A DNA stretch of 64,000 nt, taken from Nodosilinea sp. FACHB-131. GTDB lineage: Bacteria; Cyanobacteriota; Cyanobacteriia; Phormidesmidales; Phormidesmidaceae. Numbering within the stretch: the stretch's first letter is position 1; the number at the start of each line of letters is the position of its first letter. The notes under the pieces are model-generated. The model saw only the letters and a program-made list of their open reading frames with translations, was not told the DNA's origin and made no database searches. Both the position numbers and the translations under genes were made by a program. Below are positions 10,653 through 30,687 of this stretch, piece after piece. Where the stretch lies: the NCBI RefSeq assembly GCF_014695395.1, contig NZ_JACJOF010000010.1, forward strand, positions 186,001-250,000. Reading direction: 5' to 3'.

Positions 10653-11056
10653 GAATCCCCAGCCAAGGCTGCCATGATTGACCCAGCGTCAGCGCCCGCT
10701 TAAGAATTTGTCCTACCCAATGTAGCTAGCTGCAACAAAGCTTATTGCAACTTAGCCTGTCTCATTCCCGGGTAGGGTGGAGGGCATCTGGTGTAGCGGC
10801 AGCCAACGTTTGAGTATCCCAAAAGCCTAGTAGGCAAGGGGTATAAGAGCTAACACCTCTGTTTGAAGCTGGGGAACGCGGCGGTCAGCTTTAAGTTGGC
10901 GCTGGCAGATTTTGGCAGTTGAAAACAGGCTGATTTGTGCACAGCTCAGGGTTTTGCGAGGGCAGGCAAAAAACCAATTCAAAAAGTGTCCCAGTTCTGA
11001 GATCTGGGATAAGCTAATTGGCGACGTTCGCTGCTCCTCCGATCGCGATTTACACC
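10653..11056 (+). other. 404-bp intergenic region, 5' leader of the M23 gene
   Basis: No gene is supported here; a short open frame from 10912 has no family signal. An imperfect dyad at about 10731-10749 (TGCAACAAAGCTTATTGCA) is a possible operator. The length suggests a long untranslated leader or a promoter region for the peptidase gene. No known riboswitch signature was recognised. Confidence 0.4.
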
Positions 11057-11746
11057 ATGAATTGGCGACTCTGCAATCTCCCCAGACTGACTTCTGCTGC
11101 TCAATTCAAATTCGGCGTGGTTAAGACTTTAGTTCGTAGTTTGGCGAGCGGCTGGAGGCAGAGGCCTCGCCGCAGAGCCTTGCTCGGGCTAGGGTTGGCC
11201 ACAGCGTTCTTGGTCTCAGTAGCGATGCCCCGCTCGGTATCGGTGGCCAACGCCCAAGACCTAACCGCTGCGCTTTGGACTCGGGCCTCGTTTCCGGTTG
11301 AAAATTTCCAAACCTATACCTCCCCCTTCGGCTACCGCAGTGACCCCTACAACGGTGGCTCTCGTTTTCATTACGGCCTTGATCTAGCGGCCCCCAATGG
11401 TAGCTACATTCGCAACTGGTGGGCGGGCGAAGTGCTGTGGGTCGAGGGCGATGGCGCCTGTGGCACCTCCATGGCGATCAAATCGGGGGAATGGACCCAT
11501 ATTTACTGCCACATGCAGGGGCATGTGGAGGGCAGTGGCCAGAACAAAGTCATGGTCGATCGCGACGGCGGCATTCAGCTGCAGGCGGGCCAGGCCATTC
11601 CTGCGGGGGCGCGCATTGGCCGAGTGGGCATGACGGGCCGCACCACCGGGCCGCACCTGCACTGGGCTCTCAAGTACCAAGACAACTGGGTTGATCCGGC
11701 TCTGGTGCTGCGGGCCATGTATGTTGGCCAGCAGGCGGCGCTGTAG
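11057..11746 (+). CDS. exported M23-family metallopeptidase
   Basis: This encodes 229 residues from the ATG at 11057; a TTG at 11018 is in frame but gives an unlikely N-terminus. A basic region (RQRPRRRALLG) then a hydrophobic stretch ending VANAQ looks like a signal peptide. The catalytic domain has SPFGYRSDPYNGG, then FHYGLDLAAPNG (HxxxD, two zinc ligands) and GPHLHWAL (HxH, the remaining ligands). M23 enzymes are Gly-Gly/peptidoglycan cross-link endopeptidases acting in the periplasm. The next gene starts 6 bp downstream, so the two probably form an operon. Confidence 0.93.
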   Translation: MNWRLCNLPRLTSAAQFKFGVVKTLVRSLASGWRQRPRRRALLGLGLATAFLVSVAMPRSVSVANAQDLTAALWTRASFPVENFQTYTSPFGYRSDPYNGGSRFHYGLDLAAPNGSYIRNWWAGEVLWVEGDGACGTSMAIKSGEWTHIYCHMQGHVEGSGQNKVMVDRDGGIQLQAGQAIPAGARIGRVGMTGRTTGPHLHWALKYQDNWVDPALVLRAMYVGQQAAL

Positions 11747-11752
11747 GGTTCG

Positions 11753-13909
11753 GTGCCTTGCCCCGGTTGGCGATGGATAGCCTGGTTAGGACTTGTGGTT
11801 TTGGTAGTGGGAATGGCAATCGCTCAGCCGCTCTCTGCCCTAGCAGCTGACAGCCACCCACCTCTGACATTAGACCTGTTGCGCCAGCGGCTAGCGGCCC
11901 CGGTGCAGCGGGAGGGCAGACCAGCCATCGATCTGCGCTACTACACCATCGATCTGCGGCCTGACAGCCCCCTGACCGATAGCTTTTACCGGCTGCTGAG
12001 CAGCGGGCTGCAAAAACCGGCAACAACCCCAGTGCTCGACCTGAGTTATGCCGTGGTGCAAGGCGATCTCGACTTGCAGCGCCTGGGCCAGCGGGAACCC
12101 CTCTATGGCGACAACCTCTCACCGCTGCTGAGCGATACCGGACAGGCTCAACTGAGGCGCGATCGCCAGCGCTTGCTCCAGCTCAGTCGGCTCTCCCAGT
12201 CATTGCTCATTCAAGGCCAGGGTAGCAGCCAGCAAATTTATTTATTCAAAGCGCCGCTGGTGGCGGTGCAGACCCGCTTCACGGGCCAGGTACTGGGGGG
12301 CGATACGTTCTTTTTGGGGCGAGTGCTAGCCAGCGGGGCAGTGTTTGAGCAGGGCCTCTCTGTGGGCGGGGCGCGCTTCAACCAAGCGGTAAATTTTTCG
12401 GGGGCCGACTTTCGCCAGAGAGTGCAGGCCAAGGGCAGCCTATTTTTTGAGCCGGCCCGGTTTGATCAGAGCCAGTTGCGCAGCGGCGCGACTTTTCAGG
12501 GAGCCGAGTTTAAAGCCGATGTCAATTTCAGCCGGGCGGTGCTAGCGGGCGATCTAAACTTTGGCCGCGTGCAGTGGCAGGGGGTGGCCGACTTTGCCCG
12601 CACGGTGTGGCAGAGCAGCGCCTTCTTTGTGCGCAGCTACTTTGCCAAGGCGCTGTTTTTTACCGAAGCCCGCTTTGACGCGCCACTGGTGCTGCGTCAA
12701 ACCCGCTTTGGCGAGCCAGTCAACCTGCGCAACGCCATGGTCGGCGGTGAGGTCGATCTGGGGGATGCGATATTTCTGCCAGGGGCCTACCTAAACGTGG
12801 CGGGTCTGGAGTTTAGCCTGGAGCAAACCCAGATTTTGGGCACCCCCAGCAAAATTGGTCGGGTGTTTTCGGTGCCGCAGCTGGCGGGCAACGAGACCCT
12901 GCTGCGCAACCTGGAGCGCAACTTTCGCAATCAGGAGCAGATTAGCGACGCCAACTCGATCGCCTACACCGCCGAGCGCCTGCGGCTAAAAAGCTGGCAG
13001 CAGCGGCTGCTGGGGACCAACGTCAACACCGCTTCGGTGGCCGCCCTGGTGCGGGCGGGCTTTACCGAGGCCCAGGCGGCGGCGGTAGTCAACCAGCGCC
13101 AAATCCGAACCTTCATCGGCACCGAGGGGGTGCTGAGCGTGCCGGGGGTTGACCTGGCAGCGTATCTAAAGGTGCGCGATCGCATCTTTGCCCGCGACAC
13201 CTTCCCGATTACGCGGCGGTTTACCCTGGCCTTGCAGTGGCTGTGGCTGGGAGGGCTAGTGGTGCTGAGCCGCTATGGCACCAGCTTTGGCCTCACCTTC
13301 GGCCTGGGTCTGGTGGCCATTCCCACCTTTGCGCTGATGTTTTGGCTGGTCGATCGCTACCGTCGCCGCCGAGCCACCCCGATTCTGCCGCCCCTGGCAG
13401 AAGGGCTATGGCTGGGGGGAGGCTGTAGCCTGCTGCTGGGGCTGGGGCTCAACGCCTTGCTGCGCTCCGCCGACTATCCGCTGCTGACTCTGGGCTTTTT
13501 GTTTATGCTGCTGGTGCCAGTGCCCGCCGTGCTGATTGGTCTCTTAATTAAGCGGGGCCGCTACCACGACCTGATGCAGGAAAGCTACTTTGTCGAAGAC
13601 GGCAGCCTGCGCCAGCTGCGGCTCTTGATCGCGCGCCTGCCGGTGATCCCAAAGTTTCCGTTTTTTCGCGATCGCTACACCTACCTGCTGCTCGATCGAC
13701 GCTGGAACTGGCTAAATTATTTAGACTTTAGTCTCAACAACTGGCTAAAGTTTGGCTTTAATGACATTCGATTACGAGACGAGCATGTGCCGGGGCTGAT
13801 TACAGCTTTGGTGTGGTATCAATGGGGGTTGGGTCTGCTCTACACAGCGCTGCTCCTGTGGACGCTCTCGCGCACCATCCCAGGGCTGAACCTGCTGATT
13901 TATTTCTAG
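11753..13909 (+). CDS. pentapeptide-repeat-like multi-domain membrane protein
   Basis: This encodes 718 residues from a GTG 6 bp after the M23 gene. A signal-anchor (LVVLVVGMAIAQPLSALAA) is followed by a soluble region. Residues about 180-340 show a quasi-repeated pattern with F/L at every fifth position (RFNQAVNFSGADFRQRVQAK; FKADVNFSRAVLAGDLNFG), as in degenerate pentapeptide beta-helices. A helix-hairpin-helix-like segment near residue 430 (NTASVAALVRAGFTEAQAAA) resembles ComEA-type motifs. The last third has four to five membrane segments (around 490-600 and at the C-terminus). Function is unknown; the pairing with a peptidoglycan hydrolase suggests an envelope role. Confidence 0.85.
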   Translation: MPCPGWRWIAWLGLVVLVVGMAIAQPLSALAADSHPPLTLDLLRQRLAAPVQREGRPAIDLRYYTIDLRPDSPLTDSFYRLLSSGLQKPATTPVLDLSYAVVQGDLDLQRLGQREPLYGDNLSPLLSDTGQAQLRRDRQRLLQLSRLSQSLLIQGQGSSQQIYLFKAPLVAVQTRFTGQVLGGDTFFLGRVLASGAVFEQGLSVGGARFNQAVNFSGADFRQRVQAKGSLFFEPARFDQSQLRSGATFQGAEFKADVNFSRAVLAGDLNFGRVQWQGVADFARTVWQSSAFFVRSYFAKALFFTEARFDAPLVLRQTRFGEPVNLRNAMVGGEVDLGDAIFLPGAYLNVAGLEFSLEQTQILGTPSKIGRVFSVPQLAGNETLLRNLERNFRNQEQISDANSIAYTAERLRLKSWQQRLLGTNVNTASVAALVRAGFTEAQAAAVVNQRQIRTFIGTEGVLSVPGVDLAAYLKVRDRIFARDTFPITRRFTLALQWLWLGGLVVLSRYGTSFGLTFGLGLVAIPTFALMFWLVDRYRRRRATPILPPLAEGLWLGGGCSLLLGLGLNALLRSADYPLLTLGFLFMLLVPVPAVLIGLLIKRGRYHDLMQESYFVEDGSLRQLRLLIARLPVIPKFPFFRDRYTYLLLDRRWNWLNYLDFSLNNWLKFGFNDIRLRDEHVPGLITALVWYQWGLGLLYTALLLWTLSRTIPGLNLLIYF

Positions 13910-16600: not shown

Positions 16601-16680
16601 GCTCCCTCTCTCAAGGCAGAGGCGCAGCGCTCACGCCCTCCAGTGGCCTAAAATGAGGCTGAGCACTTGAGTTGAACAGC

Positions 16681-18663
16681 ATGGCAAATCAGGGAAGCGA
16701 CGTCCTGGTAGTGGGCGGCGGGGTTATTGGCTTGGCGATCGCCCTAGAGCTGCGGCAGCAGGGGGTCAGCGTTGCCGTGCTCAGCCGCGACTTTCAGCAG
16801 GCTGCCAGCCACGCCGCTGCGGGCATGCTCGCCCCCCAGGCGGAAGGGTTGCCGCCTGGGCCAATGCTCGATCTCGCCCTTGCCAGCCTGGCGCTCTATC
16901 CCACCTGGGTGAACAAACTGGAAGCACTCACCGGGCAGTCGGTGGGCTACTGGCCGTGCGGCATTTTGGCTCCGCGACGCACGGCAACTGCGCCTTCCAC
17001 CGGCTGGCTAGATGCGGCGACCCTGGCCTACTACCAGCCCGGCCTCGGCCACGATGTGCAGGGAGCGTTTTGGTACCCTGACGAGGGCCAGGTAGACAAT
17101 CGCCTGCTGGTGCAGGCGCTGCGATCGGCGGTCATTGACCTGGGAGTAACCCTGCACGAAGGCACTGGAGCGATCGCCCTGCGCCAATATCAGGGGCGCG
17201 TTGAGCAGGTCTGTACAGCTCAGGCGGGCAACTTTAGCGCTGACCAAGTGGTGCTGGCCACTGGGGCCTGGGCTAACGAGCTCTTGCCCCTACCGGTCTT
17301 TCCTCGAAAGGGCGAAATGGCCAGCCTGCGGGTGCCCCTCGGCTATGGCACCCCTCAACCCTTGCAGCGGGTGCTGTTTGGCGAAGACATCTACATCGTG
17401 CCCCGCCGAGATGGTCGCATTGTGCTGGGGGCCACTAGTCAGGATGTTGGGTTTGCGCCCCACAACACGGCGGGCGGGGTGCATCAGCTAGTGGGCAATG
17501 CGATCGCCCTGCTGCCCCAGCTAGCCAACTTCACCCTGGAAGAAACCTGGTGGGGGTACCGCCCCGCCACCCCCGATGAGTGGCCCATCCTTGGCCCTGG
17601 CCCTGCCACCAACCTCACCTTGGCCACCGGTCACTACCGCAACGGCATTTTGCTCACCCCCATTACTGCTCAGCTGGCGGCCCAGGCGGTGCTGGGCAAG
17701 CCAGACCCGCGCTTAGATGCGTTCTCTTGGCAGCGCTTCCACACCGCCCCGCCCACACATCCCAACCTTCCCGCTGTTTCTCCTACCCCTCAGGCTATGA
17801 CCTTTACCGATGCTGCCCCTGCGACCCCGGCCGCTCTGGGAACGAATCTGTCCTTCGCCAACGACTTGACCGACACCCCTCTAACCATCGCCGGGCGCAC
17901 CTTTTCGTCTCGGCTGATGACCGGCACCGGCAAGTACGACGACTTTGAGGTGATGCGCCAGAGCATTGCCGCCAGCGGCTGTGAAATTGTCACCGTGGCG
18001 GTGCGGCGGGTGCAGACCAGCGCCCCCGGTCACCAGGGGCTAGCCGAAGCCCTCGACTGGTCAAAGATCTGGATGTTGCCCAACACGGCGGGCTGCCAAA
18101 CCGCCGAGGAAGCCATTCGGGTTGCTCGCCTGGGCCGCGAAATGGCCAAACTGCTGGGTCAAGAAGACAACAACTTCGTCAAGCTCGAAGTCATTCCCGA
18201 CGCCAAGTACCTGCTGCCCGACCCGATTGGCACCCTGGAAGCTGCTGAACAGCTAGTGAAAGAAGGCTTTGCAGTGCTGCCCTACATCAACGCCGACCCG
18301 CTGCTGGCTAAGCGATTAGAAGAGGCAGGCTGTGCCACCGTCATGCCGCTGGGGTCGCCCATTGGCTCAGGGCAAGGCATTCGCAACGCCGCCAATATTC
18401 AAATCATCATTGAGACCGCCAAGGTTCCAGTGGTGGTGGATGCCGGAATTGGCACCCCCAGCGAAGCCGCCGAAGCCATGGAAATGGGGGCCGATGCCCT
18501 GCTGATCAACACCGCGATCGCCAAAGCCGCCAACCCGATCGCCATGGGTCGCGCCATGGGGCTCGCTACCCTGGCCGGTCGCTTGGCCTACCGCGCCGGG
18601 CGGATTCCGGTGCAGGGGGTGGCTAGTGCCAGCTCGCCGCTGACGGGGCGGGTGACGGAGTAG
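16681..18663 (+). CDS. thiO/thiG: bifunctional glycine oxidase ThiO / thiazole synthase ThiG
   Basis: This encodes 660 residues from the ATG at 16681. The N-terminal half (about 1-350) is a FAD-dependent glycine oxidase: [20 protein letters not shown] is the dinucleotide-binding motif and [18 protein letters not shown] the C-terminal FAD contact. After a linker, about residues 390-655 are Thi[39 protein letters not shown] and [20 protein letters not shown]. ThiO supplies dehydroglycine directly to ThiG for the thiamin thiazole ring. The fusion is known in cyanobacteria. No TPP riboswitch was recognised upstream. Confidence 0.95.
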
Positions 18664-19132: not shown

Positions 19133-19510
19133 CTAAAGCCTCCAGTGGAGCAGGTTGGCAATTTGCTGGGCCAGAGTGAGGGGGTCAAAGGGCTTGGTGA
19201 TCAGGCCGGCTACCTGAAGAGCGGTAAAGCGGGAGCGATCGCGCGCTAGCACCTTAGAAGTGAGCACAATTACAGGAATGGCCGCGGTGGCAGGGTGGCG
19301 GCGCAGCCTGTCGTAGATCTCAAAGCCATCCATATCGGGCATAGAAATATCGAGCAGAATAGCATCGATGGCCGACCCCTGGGCCAGCTGTAACCCCTCG
19401 GTTCCAGAGGTAGCCTCGAGGATTTGCCAGCCCGCCAGTTCTTCCAAAGCCGCCTGCACAATAGCGCGAATGTCATCTTCATCGTCGATCAGCAGCACTC
19501 GCTTAGACAT
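19133..19510 (-). CDS. CheY-like response regulator
   Basis: This is a 125-residue stand-alone receiver domain. Phospho-acceptor Asp54 is in ILLDISMPDMDGFE, the acidic pocket is DDEDD near residues 9-13, and the conserved Thr and Lys are in VLTSK. Its start lies inside the end of the histidine kinase gene (8-bp overlap), so the two are an obvious pair. With no output domain, it probably acts by protein contact or as a phosphate sink. Confidence 0.93.
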   Translation of the reverse strand: MSKRVLLIDDEDDIRAIVQAALEELAGWQILEATSGTEGLQLAQGSAIDAILLDISMPDMDGFEIYDRLRRHPATAAIPVIVLTSKVLARDRSRFTALQVAGLITKPFDPLTLAQQIANLLHWRL

Positions 19511-22187
19511 GGTTGGCCTCTGGCATCAGCGGCAGCTGCACAAAAAAGGTGCTGCCCTGCCCCAGATGGCTCTCAACCCAGATATGGCCCTGGTGCTGCT
19601 GCACAATCCGCTTGCAGATCGCCAAGCCCAGCCCTGTACCACCGCGCTGCCGCGAGTCCGAGGCATCCACCTGCTGAAATTGATCAAAAATTACCTCCAG
19701 TTTCTCGGCAGGAATGCCGCGTCCGTGGTCGCGGACGGTGAGGAGGAGGTGGGGGTGAGGGGGTGAAGGGGTGGGAGGGTGGAGGGGTGGGAGGGTGACT
19801 TGTCCTAACTCCGTGATCTTCCCCATCTCCCCTACCTCCTCCCCGGCCAACGCCGTTGCCTCTAACCAAACCGTCTCTCCATGACGCGAGAACTTAATGG
19901 CATTGCTAAGCAAGTTGGTGAGCACCTGAACAATGGCGTCGGGGGCAGCCCACAGGGTGAGATTCAACGGTATCAGGGCGATGGTAATGCCAGAGCGATC
20001 GGCCAGGAGCTGAACGCTGTCGATCGCCTGGTACATCAGGGTGGCTAACTGGCAAGTTTCTTTTTCGAGCTGCACTTTGCCCGATTCAAGCCGCTCAAAG
20101 CTGAGAATGTCGTCGACCAAACGCACCAGGCGATCGCTGTTATTGATGGCAATGTCGAGCATGTGGCGGGCCTTCTCGGGGCGATCGGCGTAAACCCCGG
20201 CCCCCAACAGTGCCAGCGCCCCCTGAATGGCGGTGATTGGGGTGCGCAGCTCGTGGCTGACCACGGAGATAAACTCATCTTTCATGCGATCGATGGCCAG
20301 GCGCTCGCGAATATCCTGCACATGGCCAACGGAGTAGATGGGGTTGCCCGCCGCATCGTAGATCGGGGCCGCGTTGATCACCACTGGAATCACCTCTCCC
20401 TGTTTGCTCAGGTAGCGCTTTTCGATCTCGTAGGTGCGCGCCTCGCCGCTCATCATGCGCTGAAACCCGGCCCAGTCGCTAGCCCAGTCGTCGGGGTGGG
20501 TGATGTCTTTGAAGGTGAGGGTCAGCAGCTCAGCCTCGGTGTAGCCCAGCAGGGTGCAGTAGTAGGGGTTGACCAGCACAAACTGCCCGGTGGTCGACAC
20601 TAGCGAAATGCCGTAGGGGGCGTCGTCAAAGGCACTGCGAAATCGGGCTTCACTCTGGCACAGGGCCTCTTCGGTGCGCTTGCGTTCGGTAGTGTTTTCT
20701 ACGGTGCCGACTACCCGCACCACTTGGCCCGCCTCATTAAACAGAGGGAACGCCTTTGAGCGCAACCAGCGCAGCTCGCCCCCAGGAGTAATGTAGCGAT
20801 ACTCTTGATCGAAGTTCTCGCCCTGCCGCTCTCGCCCTAGGGCGGCAATGATGCGATCGCGATCGTCAGGGTGAATGCAGGCTATCCATTGGGCTTGGCT
20901 GTCGGGACTAGGGGCAGGAACAGGGGCTATTCCCCGAATTTCCCAATAGGACGAATTGACGTAAGCATAGTGGGCAGTCTCGGTATCGTAGACAAAAAAG
21001 CCCTCCTGCACCGTTTCCGCCAGCTGCCGAAAGCGGGTTTCACTCTCTTGCAGAGCCAGCTCTGCCTGTTTGCGATCGGTGATATCCATCGAGACACCCA
21101 TCAGCTTGACTACTCGCCCCTGGTCATCAAAGATGGGCTCACCCCGGGCGTCGAGGTAATGGATTGAGCCGTCGGGGTGAACGGGACGCAGGTCTACCTG
21201 GTAGGGAATGCCGTCGGCAATGGCGGCGGTCATGCGCTGGGTGAGGCGATCGCGATCCTCGGCTGGCAGCTTTTGCAGCAGCTCATCGTAGGTTGGGGGT
21301 GTTGGGGTAGGCTCCAGCCCCCAGTGGCGAAAGGTCATTTCCGACCAGGCAATCCCCTGGCTGACGACGTCAAATTCCCAATAGCCCACCTGAGCCACTC
21401 GCTGGGCCAGGGCCAGCCGCTGCTGACTCTGGCGCAGGGCGGCCTCGGCCTGGTGGCGATCGGTGATATCGCGGTGGGTCACAATCAGACAGTCTTGGCC
21501 GTCGAGGGCTTGGGCCTCGGCAGAAAGCAGCACAGTTTTGATTTCTCCTCGCTTCGTAGTGAGCTGCACCTCCAAATTGCGCACCCGGCCCTGCTGCTCT
21601 AGCAGGGTGCGGTAGCGATCGCGCTGGGTGAGGTCGGTCCACAGGTTAAGCTCTATGGCGGTGCGCCCCACCATCTCGTCTCGGTCGTAGCCAAGAAATT
21701 CCAGCAGGCTGTGGTTGACATCGACCAAACGGCCCTGGTCCCGAGTGGCAATGGCAATAGGGTCAGGGCTAGTGCGAAAAATGGTGGTGAACTTGGTTTC
21801 TGACTCGGTCAGGGTAGTCTGCAGGCGCTGAAACGACTGCTGCAGCTGGTCGGCCATCTGGTTAAAGGAGCGGGCCAGGTGGTTAAATTCGCTGATGCGG
21901 CTGTTGGTGGGCAACCGCTGGGCAAAATTGCCCGCTGCCAGCTCGTCGCTAACTCGGGCAAAGAGGCGCAGGCGAGCCAGTACCCCCTGGGTGAGCAGCA
22001 GCCCCAGGGCGATCGCGCCCCCCAGGGTAGGCAACAGCAGCAGTGAAATCTGATGCGCTCGGTCTGGCCCCCGCTCCACCGAGTGACCCGCAACCACCAT
22101 CGCCAGCAGCGCAAACACCACCAGCGGCACCGTTAGCACCCAGTGCAGCGGGAGAGGAGGAGCCAGGTTCAGGCGGGGCAGACGCAT
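19503..22187 (-). CDS. membrane sensor histidine kinase, HAMP plus four PAS
   Basis: This encodes 894 residues. Two membrane segments lie close together (about 15-35 and 48-72) with almost no periplasmic domain. Then HAMP (RVSDELAAGNFAQRL), four PAS/PAC units (about 130-635), HisKA with His645 in VSHELRTPITAI, and HATPase with N-box NAIKFSR (Asn762), DHGRGIP (Asp820) and GGTGLGLAICKRI. Input is therefore cytosolic or in-membrane. The ATPase domain carries an unusual insertion of about 25 residues between N-box and G1 box (TLPPLHPPTPSPPHPH), encoded by a C-rich repeat tract. It overlaps the receiver gene by 8 bp and follows the REC-wHTH-Hpt gene. Confidence 0.95.
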   Translation of the reverse strand: MRLPRLNLAPPLPLHWVLTVPLVVFALLAMVVAGHSVERGPDRAHQISLLLLPTLGGAIALGLLLTQGVLARLRLFARVSDELAAGNFAQRLPTNSRISEFNHLARSFNQMADQLQQSFQRLQTTLTESETKFTTIFRTSPDPIAIATRDQGRLVDVNHSLLEFLGYDRDEMVGRTAIELNLWTDLTQRDRYRTLLEQQGRVRNLEVQLTTKRGEIKTVLLSAEAQALDGQDCLIVTHRDITDRHQAEAALRQSQQRLALAQRVAQVGYWEFDVVSQGIAWSEMTFRHWGLEPTPTPPTYDELLQKLPAEDRDRLTQRMTAAIADGIPYQVDLRPVHPDGSIHYLDARGEPIFDDQGRVVKLMGVSMDITDRKQAELALQESETRFRQLAETVQEGFFVYDTETAHYAYVNSSYWEIRGIAPVPAPSPDSQAQWIACIHPDDRDRIIAALGRERQGENFDQEYRYITPGGELRWLRSKAFPLFNEAGQVVRVVGTVENTTERKRTEEALCQSEARFRSAFDDAPYGISLVSTTGQFVLVNPYYCTLLGYTEAELLTLTFKDITHPDDWASDWAGFQRMMSGEARTYEIEKRYLSKQGEVIPVVINAAPIYDAAGNPIYSVGHVQDIRERLAIDRMKDEFISVVSHELRTPITAIQGALALLGAGVYADRPEKARHMLDIAINNSDRLVRLVDDILSFERLESGKVQLEKETCQLATLMYQAIDSVQLLADRSGITIALIPLNLTLWAAPDAIVQVLTNLLSNAIKFSRHGETVWLEATALAGEEVGEMGKITELGQVTLPPLHPPTPSPPHPHLLLTVRDHGRGIPAEKLEVIFDQFQQVDASDSRQRGGTGLGLAICKRIVQQHQGHIWVESHLGQGSTFFVQLPLMPEANHV
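19741..19850 (-). repeat. C-rich repeat tract inside the kinase gene
   Basis: On the coding strand of the kinase this reads as a G-rich GAGGAGGTAGGGGAGATGGG block followed by CACCCTCCCACCCC-type C-rich repeats. It has the same flavour as the leader tracts at 14546 and 40404. It stays in frame and encodes the Pro/His-rich insertion in the ATPase domain. Confidence 0.7.
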
Positions 22188-22211
22188 AGGCGCGATCGAG
22201 CACTCAAGGGG

Positions 22212-23285
22212 CTAAGGCACTGCCCTTAGGTTACGGCCAGGCGTAGCGTCTTCTTCACCAGCTGGAATCATCAGCGATCGCTTCAGCAGCTCCAGGCGGT
22301 GAGACAGCTGGGGTCGCAGTTTGGGGTGGGGCGCAGAGCGCAGCAGCAGCTCGATTGCCTCCGCCACCGCCGCTGCTTGGGCATAGCCAAACAGCCCCAG
22401 CCCCCCCGCCAGCCGGTGGGCTTCGGCCATGGCCAACTGCCGCAGCTCGGGGCTAAAGGTGCCAGACTCTAGGGCCTGCATGGCCCGATCTAATACCTCC
22501 AGCCGCTGCTCTAGGGAAGCGCGAAACCGCTGGGTCGCCTGCTGCATTACCCGATCGAGGCGCGGTGAGGACGAGCCACCAGCGACGGACTGCCCCGCTG
22601 CCGCCGCGTCCGCAGGAACCGCCTTGAGTCGATAGCCCAACCCGTAGACCGTCTCAATGGGGCTGGTCTCCAAGCCCGCTGCCTTCAGCCGCTGGCGCAA
22701 ATCTTTAATTAGGTTAGTGACCGAGCCTTCCACCGGAGTGTCGGCCATGGGCCACAGGTGGTCGATAATGGCGCTGCGGGTGAGCATTCGCTGGGGCTGG
22801 CGCAAAAACAGCTCTAGCAGTTCATATTCTTTGGGTCGGCAGGCGATGGGCTGCTGGCGGTAGGTCACCTGGGTGAGGGCCGGGTCGAGGCGCAGCTCAC
22901 CCCAGCTCAGCACCGGGGCCGTTGCGCTGCTACGACGCAGCAGAGCCCGCACCCGCGCTAGCAGCTGGGGCGCATCCCCAGTTTTAGCGAGGTAGTCGTC
23001 GGCCCCGGCATCTAGCCCAGCGACAATATCAGCACTGGTGGCTTTGACCGTGAGCATGAGAATGGGAGTACGGTTGCCCTGGGCGCGCAGGCGGCGGCAG
23101 ACCTCTAGCCCATCCAGCTTCGGCAGCAGCCAGTCGACAATCAGCAGGTCGTAGGGCCAGCGGCTGGCCAGATCGAAACCGGTGGCCCCGTCGGCGATCG
23201 CATCGACAGCGTAGCGATGGCTCGTCAGGGTGTCAGCCAAAAAGTCACTGGTGGATGGGTCATCCTCTAGCAGCAGTATTTTCAT
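22212..23285 (-). CDS. response regulator with winged-helix and Hpt domains
   Basis: This encodes 357 residues in three parts. The receiver (1-115) has Asp51 in LLIVDWLLPKLDG and Lys in YLAKTGD. An OmpR/PhoB-type winged helix follows (about 130-225; RPKEYELLELFLRQPQRML and SVTNLIKDLRQRL and TVYGLGYRL). A C-terminal phosphotransfer domain (about 250-330) has His290 in MAEAHRLAGGLGLFG. One chain thus has a DNA-binding output and a second phosphorylatable His. It is likely part of a relay with the kinase 24 bp downstream and the CheY-like protein after that. No strong promoter was recognised before 23285. Confidence 0.93.
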   Translation of the reverse strand: MKILLLEDDPSTSDFLADTLTSHRYAVDAIADGATGFDLASRWPYDLLIVDWLLPKLDGLEVCRRLRAQGNRTPILMLTVKATSADIVAGLDAGADDYLAKTGDAPQLLARVRALLRRSSATAPVLSWGELRLDPALTQVTYRQQPIACRPKEYELLELFLRQPQRMLTRSAIIDHLWPMADTPVEGSVTNLIKDLRQRLKAAGLETSPIETVYGLGYRLKAVPADAAAAGQSVAGGSSSPRLDRVMQQATQRFRASLEQRLEVLDRAMQALESGTFSPELRQLAMAEAHRLAGGLGLFGYAQAAAVAEAIELLLRSAPHPKLRPQLSHRLELLKRSLMIPAGEEDATPGRNLRAVP

Positions 23286-23395
23286 TACAAAGAAGCATTA
23301 CAAAAATATGTATCTAAAGGAGGGTGTTATCTTGCCCCCTACGATACTCTGGTAACCCGCTGGCCACAATCCCCCACCCCGGTAATGGAGATCGT

Positions 23396-26308
23396 TTAGG
23401 CAGGTCTATGGCTGGGCTGTTGAATAAATGCTTCCACCTGGTCTGGGGGCAACGGCGGCGCAATCCAGTAGCCTTGAATGGCGTCACAGCCCAACTGCTC
23501 CAGTCGGTGGGTTTGAAACTCGGTCTCGACCCCCTCGGCGATTACGGTCATGCCCAGCGACTTGGCAATCTGAATAATGGCTTTGACGATGCTGACATCG
23601 TCGTGGTCAACGTCAATATTTTCGACAAACGACTGGTCGATCTTCAGGGTATTGATGGGAAAGCGCTTGAGATAGCTCAGGGATGAATAGCCGGTGCCAA
23701 AGTCATCAATTTTGATATCAACCCCCTGTTTCTGAAGGTTCGACAGCGTCGACAGCACGCCCTTTACATTCAGCAGCAGCAAACTTTCGGTCACCTCTAG
23801 ACCAAAGTTGGTGGCCGGCAGCGCTGTTCGCTCCAGAACGGCCTTGATCTGCTCAAAAAATTCGGGCCGCTCAAACTGCGCCGCCGCCACATTCACATTC
23901 ATCTTCAACCCCTTGACTACGGGGAACCGGTGACACCAATCGGCCATCTGACGACAGGCGGTCTCAAAGATCCATTCGCTGAGGGGAATAATCAGCCCCG
24001 TTTCCTCCGCCAGGGGAATAAATTCGCCGGGCGCAATGAGCCCGCGCTGGGGGTGCATCCACCGCACCAGCGCCTCAAAGCCCAGCAGCTGCCGACCGGC
24101 CAGGCTGACAATGGGCTGATAGTGAAGGATGAAGTCTTGCCGCTCTAGGGCCTGACGCAGATGGGTTTCTAGCTCAAATAGCTCGATTGCGCTAGCGTGC
24201 ATCGCCGGGTTAAAGATTTTGTAGCCCATCGACTGCCCCCCGGCCTTGGCCCGATACATGGCGTTATCCGCATCCCGCAGCATATCTTCTCCCCGGTTGT
24301 AGTCGGGGCTGGCTAGGGCAATACCCAGGCTGGCAGAGGTAAAGACCGTGTGACCCATCAGCAGAAACGGCGCTTTGATATCTGACTGAATGCGCTCCAC
24401 CACGTGGATGGCTTCGTTTAAGCTGGCGATTTGCTCCAGCAAAATGACAAACTCATCGCCCCCCAGGCGAGCGACTGTGTCGCTTGCCCTAACGTGGCGT
24501 TGCAGAATGTGGGCAATTTGCACCAGCAGCTGATCGCCCACCAGGTGGCCCAGGCTGTCGTTGATCACCTTGAAGCGATCCAAATCGATGAATAACACCG
24601 CAAACAGCTGCTCGGGATGGCGTTTGAACCGCTGCATGGCCTGCTCTAATCGCTCGGTAAACAGGGCGCGGTTGGGCAAGCCCGTGAGGGCGTCGTGCAG
24701 AGCCTGGTGGCGCAGTTCTTCTTCAGCTAATTTGCGATCGCTGATGTCGATAAAGGTCACCACCACCTGGGTCAGCCGCTGAGCATCGTCAAAGGTGGGA
24801 AACGCATTGACCAAGACCCAGGTGCAGTCTGAGGTCTGGGGGCGACAAATGCCTAGCACATAGTTTTGGAGCGGGCTTTGGCTGACGATCACCTGCGTCA
24901 CCGGATATTGCTCGGGGGTTAACACCACACCGGTTTCATCCACAACTGGGCAGGGGGAGTAGTCGCGGGGCTGCCCCTCCATGGCCTCCGGCGGCAACCC
25001 CAGGAGCTGAGCCGCCATCTGGTTACACATCACAATGCTGGCATCGGCAGCATAGACAATTACCCCAGCGTGGAGATGATCCACCAGCAGGCGATAGTTG
25101 GCCTCGCTGTGGTGCAGTTTTTGTAGGGCGATCGCCAGCGAGTGGGTTTGCTGCTGCAGCGTCTGATTGGCGGTGGCTAGGGCCACAGTGCGTTCGTCGA
25201 CCCGTTGTTCCAGGGTGTCTAGGGTCTGTCGTAGCTGGTTCACCATGTGGTTAAACGCCTGGGCTACCGCCGTAAACTCGTTGTCGCCGGTCAGTTGCAG
25301 GGGCTGGCTGAGGTCGTGCTGGGCAATGCGCTCGGCGGCGATCGCCATTAGCGTCAGGGGGGTCATAATTCGTCGCCCCAGCACAACACTGGCCCAAATC
25401 GCTAGGGCCAGGGCCGTTAGGGCCGTAACCAGCAGGGCCGCGCTGCTTTGATTGGCGGTGTTGGTTAGCTCAAGGCGGGCCGCAGCGGCGCGGGCGGCCG
25501 AGCGATCGCCAACGGTTTGAATAATGCCGTTAATGTCTCGGTTGATATTGGCCGCAATGATGCGGTTGACCTGCACCTGCTGATCGAGAAACAGCAGGGC
25601 ATTGAGGGAGATCTGATAGGTCTGCACCAGCGCCTTGGCCTCGGGGTCTAATGCCTCAGCCGGCAGCTGCTTTAGGGTGACAGACAGCTGATCTAGACCC
25701 GATTGCAGATCGTCGAGATAGGTCGGGTTCTGGGTATTTAGGTAGGTCTGCTGCTGAGCCATCAGCTGCCACACCAGCATGCGCAGAGGCATGATCTCTG
25801 CGCGCTGGTCGTTGGGTAGGGTGGCGAGCAAATCTTTGAGCTGGCGGTGCACCTCATGGTTCAAGCTATCCTCTGCAATGCGGCGAGTAGTAGTTTCGAA
25901 GGCCGATTCGTAGTTGTTAAACAGTGAGTCCAGCAGGGCAAATTCTTCGGCCAGCTCATGATTTTGGGCTTCTAGTGCCCTCAGAGCGGCTAAATTCTGG
26001 CGGGCCTGAGCCAAATAGGTCCGGTTGGTTTTGACATACCCTTGGGCGTTGGCATCGATATTGCCCCCCTGCCAGGTATCAAAGTAGGCCTCCTCAGCCT
26101 GGCGAGCCAGTAAAAAGTTGGTTTTTAACTCCAGGCTGAGTTCCCGCAGCTGGGCAGCATTGTCGAGGGTAGTCTGGCTGCGGTGCCGGAGCCGCTGCAA
26201 GCTACCGTAGCCAATGGCGGCGCTGATACCGTGCAACAGCAAAATGATGCCAAATCCCAGCATCAGCTGAGCCCGAATGGTTCTAAACCACCGCAGCCGG
26301 TCCGTCAT
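23396..26308 (-). CDS. membrane GGDEF-EAL (c-di-GMP) protein with PAS
   Basis: This encodes 970 residues: a membrane segment near 15-33, a helical periplasmic sensor (about 35-285), a second membrane segment (ALLVTALTALALAIWASVVL), HAMP, a coiled coil, one PAS (about 400-520), GGDEF and EAL. The cyclase motif is intact (ARLGGDEFVILLE), as is the phosphodiesterase start (GFEALVRWMHP) with later DDFGTGYSSL. It may make or break c-di-GMP. Its start codon overlaps the stop of the solute-binding protein gene (ATGA), so both are translated from one transcript. The periplasmic sensor is a plausible docking site for that protein. Confidence 0.95.
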   Translation of the reverse strand: MTDRLRWFRTIRAQLMLGFGIILLLHGISAAIGYGSLQRLRHRSQTTLDNAAQLRELSLELKTNFLLARQAEEAYFDTWQGGNIDANAQGYVKTNRTYLAQARQNLAALRALEAQNHELAEEFALLDSLFNNYESAFETTTRRIAEDSLNHEVHRQLKDLLATLPNDQRAEIMPLRMLVWQLMAQQQTYLNTQNPTYLDDLQSGLDQLSVTLKQLPAEALDPEAKALVQTYQISLNALLFLDQQVQVNRIIAANINRDINGIIQTVGDRSAARAAAARLELTNTANQSSAALLVTALTALALAIWASVVLGRRIMTPLTLMAIAAERIAQHDLSQPLQLTGDNEFTAVAQAFNHMVNQLRQTLDTLEQRVDERTVALATANQTLQQQTHSLAIALQKLHHSEANYRLLVDHLHAGVIVYAADASIVMCNQMAAQLLGLPPEAMEGQPRDYSPCPVVDETGVVLTPEQYPVTQVIVSQSPLQNYVLGICRPQTSDCTWVLVNAFPTFDDAQRLTQVVVTFIDISDRKLAEEELRHQALHDALTGLPNRALFTERLEQAMQRFKRHPEQLFAVLFIDLDRFKVINDSLGHLVGDQLLVQIAHILQRHVRASDTVARLGGDEFVILLEQIASLNEAIHVVERIQSDIKAPFLLMGHTVFTSASLGIALASPDYNRGEDMLRDADNAMYRAKAGGQSMGYKIFNPAMHASAIELFELETHLRQALERQDFILHYQPIVSLAGRQLLGFEALVRWMHPQRGLIAPGEFIPLAEETGLIIPLSEWIFETACRQMADWCHRFPVVKGLKMNVNVAAAQFERPEFFEQIKAVLERTALPATNFGLEVTESLLLLNVKGVLSTLSNLQKQGVDIKIDDFGTGYSSLSYLKRFPINTLKIDQSFVENIDVDHDDVSIVKAIIQIAKSLGMTVIAEGVETEFQTHRLEQLGCDAIQGYWIAPPLPPDQVEAFIQQPSHRPA

Positions 26309-27723
26309 AGCGACCCCTCGACGGCCATCAGCTGCCTCACAGTGGCCTGGAGCTGGTTGGCGGCCAGGGCAGGTTCTACCCCATCGTAAATGTCGTGGAT
26401 GGTGGCCGCGATCGCTAGAGCTACCTCGTTCCAGCGGGGGTGCAATACTGCGGTCGGGCGTGAGGTTTGCATGGCGGTTTGCACGGCCAGGGCGTAGTCA
26501 AAATTCATGGCCCCGGTATAGACCGACGGCGTCAACCAGCTAGAGAACCGGGGTGCTCCCCCCGTAGCCACGGCAATTTTGGCTTCCATTTCGGGGCTGG
26601 TAGCCCATTGAATAAACAGCCAGGCGGCCTGGGGATGGCTAGAGCGTTGGGGAATGCCAAGCCCCCAAAGCCAATGGCCGGTCAGGCTCTGTTGGTGAAC
26701 CGGAGGCAGCACAGTGTAGCCCACCTGATTGGCGATCGCGGAGGTCTCACGCTGCTCAAAGTCAGGTCCAAACAGGCTGGCATCAATGTAAAACGCCGCT
26801 TTTCCCGCCTGAAATAGCTGGGTAGCCTCAGGCCAATTCATCTGTTTAATGTCGGCTGGTCCCGCCTGCATCAGCTGGGCGTAGGTGGTCAACCCCTCGA
26901 CAATGCGAGGATCGGTGAGGCGAGGTTGTTGCCAGTCGCCGTCAAACCAGAGGTTAAAGGGCAGTGGGGTGGGCTCGGTTCCCCAGCCGTTGAGCACAAT
27001 CCCCGATACCGTGTCGATAATGGCATCGGATTTAACCCCGCGCATCACCATCCCCAAGGCCTGCCCGCTCTGGTTGATCTGGTTGGCGGCCTGCACCAGC
27101 TCAGCCATGGTTTGGGGCACCCGACCCGCCAAAAACTGATCCACCAGGCGCCTGTTGTAGAACAGAATGTACGCCTCAAAGGTAGCGGGAATGCCGAACA
27201 GCTGGGGGCTGCTGCTGTCTGGTGGGTACATCGCCGCCAGCCGAAACCCCTCGGGAAAGTCAAACAGGTTGTAGTTGGCTGCCGTTAGCTTAGGGTTGTT
27301 GAGCAACGGCGTCAGCGGTAGCAGCAGATCGTCTCTCCACAGTCGGTAAGCGGTAGAATCCATCGGCAAGAAGAAGGCATCTGCCGACACGGAGTCAGCC
27401 CACAGCAGCGCCTCCATTTCTGCAAAGTAGGCTGGTTCTGCCACTGTGCGAATCTTCAAGGTGATGCCGGTCAGAGCCTGAAAGTCCCGCAGGTAGGGCA
27501 GCAGGCCCGTGGTCCAGGGATGATCGTCCAGCAGCAGCCCGATCTGATCGCCCGCAAACCGTCGCCAGTCAACATTCTGGTCAGACTCGATCGCCAGCTC
27601 ATCAGTAGGAGCGCGGGCCGAGGGGCGGCAGGTTGCTAAACTCGTCAACCCCGCCGCCGCCGCCAGCTGCATAAACCGACGGCGACGCAGCACATTTATG
27701 GACTGAGCCAGTAGCTTTGGCAT
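26305..27723 (-). CDS. ABC-type extracellular solute-binding lipoprotein (family 1-like)
   Basis: This encodes 472 residues from the ATG at 27723; a TTG at 27747 is possible. The N-terminus RRRRFMQLAAAAGLTSLATC looks like a Tat-type signal ending in a lipobox, with Cys as the lipidation site. The mature part matches sugar-type solute-binding proteins: FYNRRLVDQFLAGRVPQTM, KAAFYIDASLFG, GHWLWGLGIPQRS and AWLFIQWATSPEMEAKIA are typical of MalE/UgpB-like folds. No permease or ATPase gene is nearby; instead the gene overlaps a GGDEF-EAL gene by 4 bp. A sensory rather than transport role is inferred. Confidence 0.9.
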   Translation of the reverse strand: MPKLLAQSINVLRRRRFMQLAAAAGLTSLATCRPSARAPTDELAIESDQNVDWRRFAGDQIGLLLDDHPWTTGLLPYLRDFQALTGITLKIRTVAEPAYFAEMEALLWADSVSADAFFLPMDSTAYRLWRDDLLLPLTPLLNNPKLTAANYNLFDFPEGFRLAAMYPPDSSSPQLFGIPATFEAYILFYNRRLVDQFLAGRVPQTMAELVQAANQINQSGQALGMVMRGVKSDAIIDTVSGIVLNGWGTEPTPLPFNLWFDGDWQQPRLTDPRIVEGLTTYAQLMQAGPADIKQMNWPEATQLFQAGKAAFYIDASLFGPDFEQRETSAIANQVGYTVLPPVHQQSLTGHWLWGLGIPQRSSHPQAAWLFIQWATSPEMEAKIAVATGGAPRFSSWLTPSVYTGAMNFDYALAVQTAMQTSRPTAVLHPRWNEVALAIAATIHDIYDGVEPALAANQLQATVRQLMAVEGSL

Positions 27724-27867
27724 CACGGCAACGATTGAAAGGAACAATGGCCATTGAGAGATGCACCGGCTGTTTCCTTAAGCATGCCCCGAGCGGGCAA
27801 ATTGCAGAACCTGGGCAGGGAGGGGGCGCAAGATTGGGCCTAAAGGCTTAACCTCCAATCAGTGGCA

Positions 27868-27897
27868 GCCCCCTAACCTCGTGAAAGGTTAGGGGGC
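27868..27897 (+). terminator. strong hairpin, probable terminator
   Basis: Arms GCCCCCTAACC and GGTTAGGGGGC pair perfectly (11 bp) around an 8-nt loop. A CTATTTT stretch follows on the plus strand. It lies between the end of the minus-strand glucosidase gene (64 bp away) and the promoter side of the solute-binding gene. It could stop the glucosidase transcript, although the U-run is on the other side. Confidence 0.6.
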
Positions 27898-27960
27898 CTA
27901 TTTTCCCACAGGGTTTGCCCCAGTCGGTTGAACATTAAGTCAATGACATTTCGCTGGGGG

Positions 27961-30687
27961 CTATACAGAGTATTTGACCAGCTCCCCAGGGCTGATGGTC
28001 TCAAGCACGGTGTCAGGCGTGAAGTAGCCCAGGGCCTGAATGATGCGGGCGATGCAGCCCGTCCAGCCGGTCTGGTGGCTGGCCCCAATGCCCGAGCCGT
28101 CGTCGCCATGGAAGTACTCGTAAAACAAAATTAGGTCTTGCCAGTGGGGGTCGGTCTGGAACTTTTCGGCGCCGCCATAGACGGGACGACGACCGTTTTC
28201 GTCTTTGGTAAAGATGCTGACCAGGCGCTCGCTGATGCACTGGGTGATTTCAAACAGGGTCTTTTCGTCGCCCGAGCCGGTGGGGTACTCCATCTTGAAG
28301 TCGTCGCCATAGTAGCTGTAGAGCTGCAAGAGCGCCCGAATCAGCAGCAGGTTGACGGGCATCCAGATCGGGCCACGCCAGTTGGAGTTGCCGCCAAACA
28401 TGCCCGAGGTGGAGTCGCCGGGCACGTAGCCGACTTTGTACTCCTGCCCAGCGTGGTGAAAGATGTACGGGTTGTCGTGGTGGAAGCGCGACAAGGAGCG
28501 AATGCCGTAGTCGCTCAAAAACTCGCCCTCGTCGAGCATGCGAGTGAGCACCTTGCGCAGCTTGTCTTCATTGAGAATCGACAGCATCAAACGGTGGTTA
28601 TAGCCCTGCTTAATGGGCAGGTGCACGTTGCCCACTAGCTCGGGGTGGCGATTGATAAACTTCTCGACCCGCTCCCGCAGTCGGGGCAGCTCGGTAAAGG
28701 CCTCGCGGGGGAAGACAGCGACGGCCATCAGCGAGAGTAACCCGACCAGCGATCGCACCTTCAGCCGAGTCGAGTTGCCGTCGGGTAGCCGCAGCACATC
28801 GTAGAAAAAGCCGTCCTCTTCATCCCACAGCTCGTCTTGGTGAACGCCGATGCGGTCCATGGCTCCGGCAATCCACATGGTGTGCTCAAAGAACTTGATC
28901 GCCAGGTCTTCGTAGAGGTGGTCGTGGAGGGCCAGCTCAATGGCAATTTGGAACATGCGCTGGCTAAAGAACACCATCCAGGCAGTGCCGTCGGCCTGCT
29001 CCAGCCTGCCCCCGGTGGGCAGCGGCGAGCTGCGGTCAAACACCCCAATGTTGTCGAGGCCCAGGAAGCCGCCCTCAAACAGGTTGTTGCCGCCCTCGTC
29101 CTTGCGGTTGACCCACCAGGTGAAGTTGATCAATAGCTTCGAGAAGGCGTATTTGAGAAACTCCAGGTCGCCCTGGCCGTTGTTGCGCTCGCGATCGCGC
29201 ACGTAGATCTCCCAGGTGGCAAAGGCGTGCACGGGCGGGTTGACATCTCCAAAGTTCCACTCGTAAGCCGGAATTTGGCCGTTGGGGTGCAGGTAGTCTT
29301 CGCGCAGCATCAGCATCAGCTGCGACTTGGCAAAGTCGGGGTCAATCAGGCTGATGGGAATGACGTGAAAGGCCAAATCCCAGGCGGCGTACCAGGGGTA
29401 TTCCCACTTGTCGGGCATCGATACGATGTCGTCATTCATCATGTGGAACCACTCGCTGTTGCGCACGTGGCGCTTGTCGATCACGGGCGTCCAGGGGGTG
29501 ACGTGGCGCTCCCGCAGCCACAGGTCGAGGTCGTAGTAGAAGTACTGCTTAGTCCACATCATGCCGGCCAGGGCCTGGCGCATGACATTGGCGCGATCGC
29601 CGTCAGCCAGCACCGCTGGCGGAATCACCGTGGCGTAAAACTCATCGGCCTCGCGCAGCCGCACCGCAAACTGATCGTCAAAGTAGAGGCCAAAGGGGTC
29701 GCCCACCTCGGCGGGGGTGCTCTTGGTTAGGCGCAGTTTGACCACCACTGTTTCGCCCGCCCCAATCGTGAGCTGGTAATGGGGCGAAACTTTGGTGCCC
29801 ACTCCATCGGGGTTGACCAGATCGGTTTTGCCATCCACGACATAGTTATTGACGCCGTCTTTGACGTAGGGGCTGGGATTGAGGGTGCCAAACACCCGCT
29901 CCGCGTTGGTTTCGTTTTCAGTAAACAGCAGCGGCACCCCAGCATCGCAATAGAAGTAGTAGTCGGTCATCAATGGCGTCAGCAGCGGGTTGGTGATGGT
30001 AGCCTGCACAGCTCCATTGCCCAAGGCCCTGAGCAGTGGCTTTTCGCCAGTCTCTTTCCACGACCAGGTGTTGCGAAACCACAGGGTGGGCAGCAGGTGC
30101 AGCGGGGCCGCCTCCGGTCCCCGGTTGGCCACGCTGATCTGAATCAGCACGTCTTCGGCGTCGGCCTTGGCGTATTCCACAAACACGTCGAAGTAGCGAT
30201 CGCTGTCAAAAATGCCCGTATCCAGCAGCTCGTACTCCAGCTCGTAGCGATTGCGACCGGCGTTGGTATTGACCAAATCTTCGTAGGGATACGCCGCCTG
30301 GGGGTACTTGTAGAGATACTTCATGTAGGAGTGGGTCGGCGTGCTGTCGAGGTAGAAGTAGTACTCCTTCACGTCCTCGCCGTGGTTGCCCTGACTGTTG
30401 GTCAGGCCAAACAGCCGCTCTTTGAGAATAGGGTCCTGGCCATTCCACAATGCCAGAGCAAAGCACAGCAGGTTATGGTCGTCGGTAATGCCGCCGAGGC
30501 CGTCTTCACCCCAGCGGTAGGCTCGCGATCGCGCCTGGTCGTGGGGGAAATAATCCCAGGCGTTGCCGTCGGTGCTGTAGTCTTCGCGTACGGTGCCCCA
30601 CTGGCGCTCGCTCAGGTAAGGCCCCCATTTTTGCCACGGGGCAATTTGGGCACGAATTTCTGCTAGGCGATTGGATTCTGCGCTCAC
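27961..30687 (-). CDS. GH63-like (MGH1-type) glucosidase
   Basis: This encodes 908 residues from a GTG. The length and sequence match the 'glucosidase' group with an MGH1/GH63-like (alpha/alpha)6 barrel. The N-terminus WGPYLSERQWGTVREDYS is typical of this group. Probable catalytic regions are EWNFGDVNPPVHAFATW (acid) and FYEYFHGDDGSGIGASHQ followed by TGWTG (base, compare the E...TG...WTG motif of GH63). FGGNSNWRGPIWMPVN is the conserved substrate-side motif. No signal peptide is visible, so it is cytoplasmic. The substrate is unknown; alpha-glucosides such as trehalose or glucosylglycerate-type solutes are candidates only by analogy. Confidence 0.92.
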   Translation of the reverse strand: MSAESNRLAEIRAQIAPWQKWGPYLSERQWGTVREDYSTDGNAWDYFPHDQARSRAYRWGEDGLGGITDDHNLLCFALALWNGQDPILKERLFGLTNSQGNHGEDVKEYYFYLDSTPTHSYMKYLYKYPQAAYPYEDLVNTNAGRNRYELEYELLDTGIFDSDRYFDVFVEYAKADAEDVLIQISVANRGPEAAPLHLLPTLWFRNTWSWKETGEKPLLRALGNGAVQATITNPLLTPLMTDYYFYCDAGVPLLFTENETNAERVFGTLNPSPYVKDGVNNYVVDGKTDLVNPDGVGTKVSPHYQLTIGAGETVVVKLRLTKSTPAEVGDPFGLYFDDQFAVRLREADEFYATVIPPAVLADGDRANVMRQALAGMMWTKQYFYYDLDLWLRERHVTPWTPVIDKRHVRNSEWFHMMNDDIVSMPDKWEYPWYAAWDLAFHVIPISLIDPDFAKSQLMLMLREDYLHPNGQIPAYEWNFGDVNPPVHAFATWEIYVRDRERNNGQGDLEFLKYAFSKLLINFTWWVNRKDEGGNNLFEGGFLGLDNIGVFDRSSPLPTGGRLEQADGTAWMVFFSQRMFQIAIELALHDHLYEDLAIKFFEHTMWIAGAMDRIGVHQDELWDEEDGFFYDVLRLPDGNSTRLKVRSLVGLLSLMAVAVFPREAFTELPRLRERVEKFINRHPELVGNVHLPIKQGYNHRLMLSILNEDKLRKVLTRMLDEGEFLSDYGIRSLSRFHHDNPYIFHHAGQEYKVGYVPGDSTSGMFGGNSNWRGPIWMPVNLLLIRALLQLYSYYGDDFKMEYPTGSGDEKTLFEITQCISERLVSIFTKDENGRRPVYGGAEKFQTDPHWQDLILFYEYFHGDDGSGIGASHQTGWTGCIARIIQALGYFTPDTVLETISPGELVKYSV

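Follow-up and report, generated by a model that had tools for sequence, protein, structure and literature searches.

A two-gene cassette of a carbohydrate-type solute-binding protein and a GGDEF-EAL protein in filamentous cyanobacteria

The window analyzed here (the whole stretch of 64,000 nucleotides taken from the genome of Nodosilinea sp. FACHB-131) contains a gene for a solute-binding protein (SBP) that overlaps a gene for a membrane protein with GGDEF and EAL domains (GE). These two genes are the real unit at this locus, a two-gene SBP-GE cassette, and the phosphorelay genes that follow them are a second, independent module. An SBP without its own transporter, paired with a c-di-GMP enzyme, suggests that some filamentous cyanobacteria sense an outside molecule in this way and do not import it. 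We consider it probable that SBP and GE make up a two-protein receptor in which the SBP, of carbohydrate type, gates an enzyme built both to make and to break c-di-GMP; the contact between the two proteins, the ligand class, the sign of the response, and the output are the parts of this model that we infer.

The SBP-GE cassette and its conservation

The original prediction described five genes in order on one strand, with an SBP gene sharing ATGA with a GGDEF-EAL gene, phosphorelay genes behind them, and neither permease nor ATPase at the locus. This layout was borne out: the minus strand carries all five open reading frames (ORFs), each with the domains described, the end of the SBP gene and the start of GE share ATGA (Table 1), and profile searches of the window retrieved no match to a permease or an ATPase. 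The sole PF00528 match on the source contig lies about 14 kb past the window edge. An Rfam scan of the window yielded no matches at gathering score, and a scan for promoters and terminators gave counts close to those of shuffled sequences. A hairpin of 12 bp with eight G-C pairs is present between the GH63-like gene and the SBP gene (window 27868-27897). Elsewhere in the window (16672-18663, plus strand), a single ORF encodes an FAD-dependent oxidoreductase fused to ThiG, the oxidoreductase part of which we take to be ThiO-like.

Table 1. Positions of the SBP-GE cassette, its domains, and the neighboring genes in the window.
Feature	Position	Strand	Basis
SBP gene (SBP_bac_1/8), 472 aa from ATG at 27723	26305..27723	-	ORF and profile matches
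Longer mechanical start of SBP, TTG	27747	-	ORF list
Tat-like signal peptide with terminal Cys (RR 27679-27684, Cys codon 27628-27630)	27628..27723	-	18-row alignment
GE, TM - periplasmic helical domain - TM - HAMP - PAS - GGDEF - EAL, 970 aa	23396..26308	-	ORF and profiles; TMs read from sequence
ATGA overlap, SBP stop and GE start	26305..26308	-	sequence
GE periplasmic sensor, about residues 37-288	25445..26200	-	modelled bimodular helical bundle
HAMP domain of GE	25226..25384	-	PF00672, E 2.9e-13
PAS domain of GE	24743..25099	-	PF00989, E 3.2e-07
GGDEF domain of GE, GGDEF and RxxD site intact	24233..24703	-	PF00990, E 2.3e-49
EAL domain of GE	23453..24163	-	PF00563, E 1.5e-75
Extent of SBP-GE cassette	23387..27969	.	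homology break against L160, which is without SBP-GE
REC-wHTH-Hpt, neighbor, separate module	22212..23285	-	profile matches
HAMP/multi-PAS histidine kinase, neighbor, separate module	19503..22187	-	profile matches
CheY-like receiver-only protein, neighbor, separate module	19133..19510	-	profile matches

The SBP retrieved matches to PF01547 (E 1.3e-21, 78.3 bits against a cut-off of 26) and PF13416 (E 1.7e-19), the first of which places it in the SBP_bac_1 family that marks CUT1-type binding proteins; NCBIfam assigned it to no family. Its gene most likely starts at 27723, because in three homologues (L126, L127, and L130) the mechanically called ORF opens just one codon ahead of this ATG, so an extension further upstream is not common to homologues. 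Stops flagged within the SBP matches of three further genomes (G024, G044, and G045) lie 5' of the ORF starts there. The residues R22, R23, and C40 (480-aa numbering) are invariant in all 18 aligned rows, and the twin-arginine motif at the N terminus is presumably a Tat signal. As for the description of this protein as a lipoprotein, the invariant Cys agrees with it, but the preceding residue is T, N, A, or S and thus not always the classical one, and from the sequence we regard lipidation at the Cys as likely rather than certain. The predicted structure of the SBP is poor (pLDDT 49.3, from an alignment of 18 near relatives).

Of the 63 family genomes searched, 15 gave a match to SBP, and precisely these 15 also gave one to the GE sensor region, with SBP adjoining GE in every one of them, the source window included. 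Class-wide, SBP was retrieved from 15 of 388 genomes at E <= 1e-30, all from this same family, and a profile of the GE sensor from 11 of 290 genomes at E <= 1e-6, all of them SBP carriers. No SBP-free copy of the GE sensor was found in the 63 family or the 290 class genomes, two sets that overlap. Eleven close loci (L024-L034) were retrieved when named genomes were scanned, and SBP adjoins GE at all 11; eight lie on contigs already in the family set, and L027, L034, and L032 represent further genomes, the last being labelled a Crocosphaera MAG and hence outside the family unless misbinned. We would like to note that the carrier genomes are related, so their co-occurrence is less independent than the count of 15 implies. 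The two genes overlap at 17 of 18 junctions, mostly by ATGA, and are separated by a short gap in L120. Both are under purifying selection, with dN/dS against the window copy of 0.12-0.20 for SBP and 0.12-0.15 for GE (eight comparisons, the distant ones with saturated dS), and the mirror-tree correlation of SBP with the sensor is 0.98, only slightly higher than with other GE regions (0.94-0.95).

The flanks of the cassette vary, and include genes for a GH63-like enzyme, psaA/psaB-type proteins, a TIR-Roc-LRR protein, glutamine synthetase, methionyl aminopeptidase, glycosyltransferase-like proteins, and TnpB, the commonest flanking ORF family being present at 6 of 18 loci. At L160, which has the GH63-like gene followed directly by the relay, homology to the window ends at window position 27970 and restarts at 23386, and SBP-GE is therefore a variable cassette that was gained or lost. 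GE is damaged in two of the 15 carrier genomes (G003 and G031), in both of which SBP is open. In G031 (L125, about 10973-13103), GE lacks about residues 196-454, which comprise the second half of the sensor, TM2, HAMP, and the start of PAS, and the remainder lies in two ORFs next to the open SBP; this loss is either a natural lesion or an assembly fault. In G003 (L120, 10684-13586), the GE frame is broken at the GGDEF motif, leaving ORFs of 626 aa and 329 aa; this break may be real or a sequencing error.

Search for a transporter and ancestry of the SBP

No ABC permease was detected in 25 stretches around SBP-GE from 18 genomes, as far as the contigs extend, with a profile made from the source genome's own permeases; one locus was held out of this profile, and both held-out permeases were recovered. 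ABC ATPase-like ORFs without a permease occur in six of the 25 stretches (L119, L120, L123 and its copy L029, and L131 and its copy L028). An ABC operon had been suspected beside SBP-GE in L032 from the sizes of the ORFs, but none of the six ORFs scanned there was named as a transporter: they encode TnpB, a fucosyltransferase-like protein, a protein that is mannosyltransferase-like or of the Npun_R2821 family, UbiD, a protein assigned to the Npun_R2821 family only, and one without a name. The TnpB, fucosyltransferase-like, and mannosyltransferase-like genes lie at 3012-9812 of L032 on the minus strand.

The SBP might nevertheless still serve a transporter encoded elsewhere, such as the CUT1 permeases at C20:640 kb and C20:222 kb, with its adjacency to GE being a regulatory convenience. 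The source genome does hold scattered CUT1-type genes, namely one orphan SBP and two orphan permeases on separate stretches (L132 14896-16176, L133 5990-6913, and L134 6520-7383), so permeases could be shared. Yet the C20:640 kb permease is present in 57 of the 63 genomes and the orphan SBP in 60, with or without the GE-paired SBP, and at such near-ubiquity neither tracks the 15 genomes that carry the latter (of the two orphan permeases, this survey covered the one at C20:640 kb). Moreover, when the 63 cyanobacterial genomes were searched with the first permease of the rhizobial relatives described below, no match exceeded 38% identity, and SBP and the GE sensor region are confined to the same genomes. 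We consider service to a distant transporter unlikely, and the C20:640 kb permease is not supported as a hidden partner. The original prediction had named a co-conserved permease elsewhere as the finding that would speak against it; none was seen, either adjacent in the 25 stretches or among the permeases surveyed elsewhere, and its claim that a transporter-free SBP is linked to a c-di-GMP enzyme whose periplasmic domain is large is supported, the pairing being present in 15 of 15 genomes.

The closest relatives of the SBP that were found, at 43-47% identity, are encoded on Shinella, Ensifer, and Aminobacter plasmids (five records). In the four annotated records the SBP gene is followed by genes for two permeases and an ATPase, unlike SBP-GE, while the fifth record is unannotated. 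The rhizobial SBPs have motifs in common with the SBP studied here, but their signal peptide is without the Cys. Genes annotated as GntR, ROK, SIS, and "choline dehydrogenase" are also part of these operons (L162, L163, L164, and L166), which are apparent clusters for the uptake and breakdown of a sugar or amino sugar. The protein annotated as SIS is similar to the isomerase half of GlmS, with a score below the family cut-off, and this likeness may hint at an amino-sugar ligand. In a tree of 43 chosen rows (midpoint root, long branches, two rows flagged for odd composition), the GE-paired SBPs group in a single clade (100/100), which is joined to the SBPs of the rhizobial ABC operons (100/99). 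This kinship with sugar ABC operons makes a single switch from transport to signalling likely, and one such switch, the direction of which we infer, would be the simplest reading. The sister operons show what the ancestral state is likely to have been and narrow the candidate ligands to a few, making the question testable.

Of 68 more distant relatives (25-32% identity), 53 have a permease gene no more than 5 kb away, and eight have neither a permease nor a histidine kinase, five of these eight having short flanks. Seven others, all from Pseudoalteromonas (L066, L079, L087, L088, L095, L097, and L101), have a histidine kinase gene directly after the SBP gene and permease-free flanks of up to 5 kb, and these two genes likely encode a sensing pair. 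The SBP profile matched 42 PDB sequences at E <= 0.01, all of them named as sugar, oligosaccharide, or generic SBPs and none as a polyamine SBP; among the sequence relatives with solved structures are SBPs for sorbitol, trehalose/maltose, sulfoquinovosyl glycerol, and chitin oligosaccharides. On these grounds, the ligand could plausibly be sugar-like. The broader scenario, that in a cyanobacterial lineage a carbohydrate ABC SBP lost its transporter once and was turned into the dedicated input subunit of an enzyme with both c-di-GMP activities, so that phototrophic filaments would take an external sugar (possibly an amino sugar) as a lifestyle signal while leaving it outside, is one that we hold with about as much doubt as belief.

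The GE sensor and a proposed two-protein receptor

GE has hydrophobic stretches near residues 16-36 and 289-311, as read from its sequence, with a large periplasmic part between them. The GGDEF motif and RxxD site are invariant in all 16 full-length GE rows, and the EAL motif is kept in 15, L119 having ESL. With these motifs intact, cyclase and phosphodiesterase activities would both be possible in GE. The source genome yielded one PilZ-domain match, a possible c-di-GMP reader.

All Pfam families fell below cut-off for the sensor region, a sequence search against the PDB gave only weak matches to unrelated proteins and none to TorS, and a search of plasmids gave no matches. The model of the N-terminal 365 residues is good and all-helical (pLDDT 79.9, pTM 0.63). 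In structural comparisons, with both bundles aligned, this model matched McpS with Z 18.2 and 17.9 (18.2 over 212 residues), TorS with Z 12.7-14.9 (14.9 over 205 residues), TorS from TorT complexes with Z 14.6 (3o1j, 210 residues) and 14.0, and PilJ with Z 13.5-14.1, the McpS, TorS, and PilJ alignments spanning 205-224 residues. Designed four-helix bundles in the same list outscored TorS (Z 16.0 and 15.4, over about 140 residues), and the top Foldseek match, TorS, had an E value of only 8.2e-3; because of both, we treat the fold match as no more than suggestive of a bimodular helical bundle like those of McpS and TorS.

This fold is used both for direct sensing, as in McpS, and for sensing through a partner protein, as in TorS with TorT, which we take to be an SBP-type protein. 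GE might sense its ligand directly as McpS does, with the SBP an auxiliary that concentrates or buffers the ligand, and the best fold match is indeed a McpS structure solved with malate and succinate bound. The strict pairing with SBP described above, to which no SBP-free sensor copy forms an exception in the 63 and 290 genomes (overlapping sets), favors the partner-protein mode instead, and divergence has been faster in the sensor than in the SBP (mean distance 0.419 versus 0.288), a weak hint that recognition resides in the SBP. We therefore regard direct sensing by GE as improbable.

In the two-protein receptor that we prefer, the SBP would be exported, probably by Tat, anchored via its Cys, and would bind a carbohydrate-type ligand in the periplasm and dock on the helical periplasmic domain of GE. 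A signal passing through TM2 and HAMP would then shift the balance between GGDEF (cyclase) and EAL (phosphodiesterase), such that the SBP would set c-di-GMP rather than feed a transporter, either sign of response being conceivable. The neighboring phosphorelay would be a separate, dispensable neighbor. Our best guess for the docking is, by analogy, the logic of NspS-MbaA.

According to the available parts of two papers (PMC9993111, PMC8079147), NspS-MbaA of Vibrio cholerae and Sinorhizobium meliloti is similar to SBP-GE in that the SBP gene lies upstream of, and overlaps, the gene for the membrane protein, and MbaA resembles GE in having a periplasmic domain, HAMP, and GGDEF-like and EAL-like domains. 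For V. cholerae, the proposal in the text available is that norspermidine-bound NspS docks on MbaA, inhibiting its phosphodiesterase (PMC8079147). NspS, known to us by description, is a PotD/PotF-like polyamine sensor in these accounts (PMC9993111, PMC8079147), whereas the SBP studied here belongs to the carbohydrate (CUT1-type) group. Both MbaA proteins, likewise by description (PMC9993111), have SGDEF and no RxxD, with EVL in V. cholerae, in contrast to the canonical GGDEF, RxxD, and EAL of GE, and GE has a PAS domain in addition to what is described for MbaA.

Three other systems are partly similar. TorT-TorS (3o1h, 3o1i, and 3o1j) shares with our proposal a partner docking on a periplasmic sensor that is helical and to which the GE model is similar in fold, but TorS is a histidine kinase, unlike GE, and the GE sensor is without a sequence match to it. 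As described in the accessible portion of PMC10384115, CuaD of CuaD-CuaS (Ruminiclostridium cellulolyticum) is a sugar-binding lipoprotein SBP dedicated to sensing that docks on a helical extracellular sensor, with an output through a kinase and a regulator of a transporter operon and not through c-di-GMP as for GE. In Salmonella ArtI-STM1987, per the sections at hand of PMC8846402, a periplasmic binding protein is required by a c-di-GMP enzyme for ligand sensing, but ArtI binds an amino acid (arginine) and the STM1987 sensor is a dCACHE domain, unlike in SBP-GE.

Stimulation of receptors by SBPs, c-di-GMP enzymes included, is called general and widespread in the part of PMC9602780 available. 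No description of the SBP-GE pair was found in the literature searched (open-licence PMC papers, partial coverage), and worked examples of SBP-gated c-di-GMP control were few in these partly available texts, the mechanistically detailed one, NspS-MbaA, having a polyamine SBP. If the two-protein receptor is real, SBP-GE would be a second recruitment, of another SBP class, from a sugar transporter origin and in phototrophs, and SBP capture would be a repeatable route from transport to signalling.

The neighboring phosphorelay

The REC-wHTH-Hpt gene adjoins SBP-GE in five of the 15 carrier genomes (G000, G024, G026, G044, and G045) and is absent beside it in eight; in the other two (G001 and G034), the contigs end 13 and 469 bases after GE, and the relay cannot be judged. 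A complete three-gene relay is seen beside SBP-GE in the window and G044 (L130) only, as the contigs of the other three relay-adjacent loci end before a full relay. A 3' remnant of the CheY gene is present beside an intact SBP-GE in L034, L126, and L127, together with a REC fragment in the latter two, and the relay was therefore probably lost while SBP-GE was retained. REC-wHTH-Hpt matches of 66-82% identity also occur in nine genomes without SBP-GE, and at six such loci inspected, SBP-GE was found at none, REC-wHTH-Hpt with the kinase at all six, and all three relay genes at five. About 100 bases upstream of the relay are conserved in L160, the one SBP-GE-free locus compared, and from the point at which homology resumes there, the relay keeps its own upstream DNA.

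Of the conserved neighborhood that the original prediction looked for, only the adjacency of SBP and GE thus holds, in all 15 genomes; the relay genes are not conserved with the pair, and the proposed coupling of the SBP to a phosphorelay is not supported. We reject the relay as part of the SBP-GE unit on the basis of relay-free SBP-GE loci and SBP-GE-free relay loci alike. That SBP, GE, and the phosphorelay nonetheless form one pathway in the source genome, with the relay as a second output, is very unlikely given the absences, remnants, freestanding relays, and separate upstream DNA described above, even with all of the genes closely spaced on the same strand there and the relay adjacent in five genomes.

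At one further locus (L158 9422-16803, in G023), both the GH63-like gene and the relay are present, but five opposite-strand ORFs separate them by about 7 kb, and the site between these genes seems to take up genes repeatedly.
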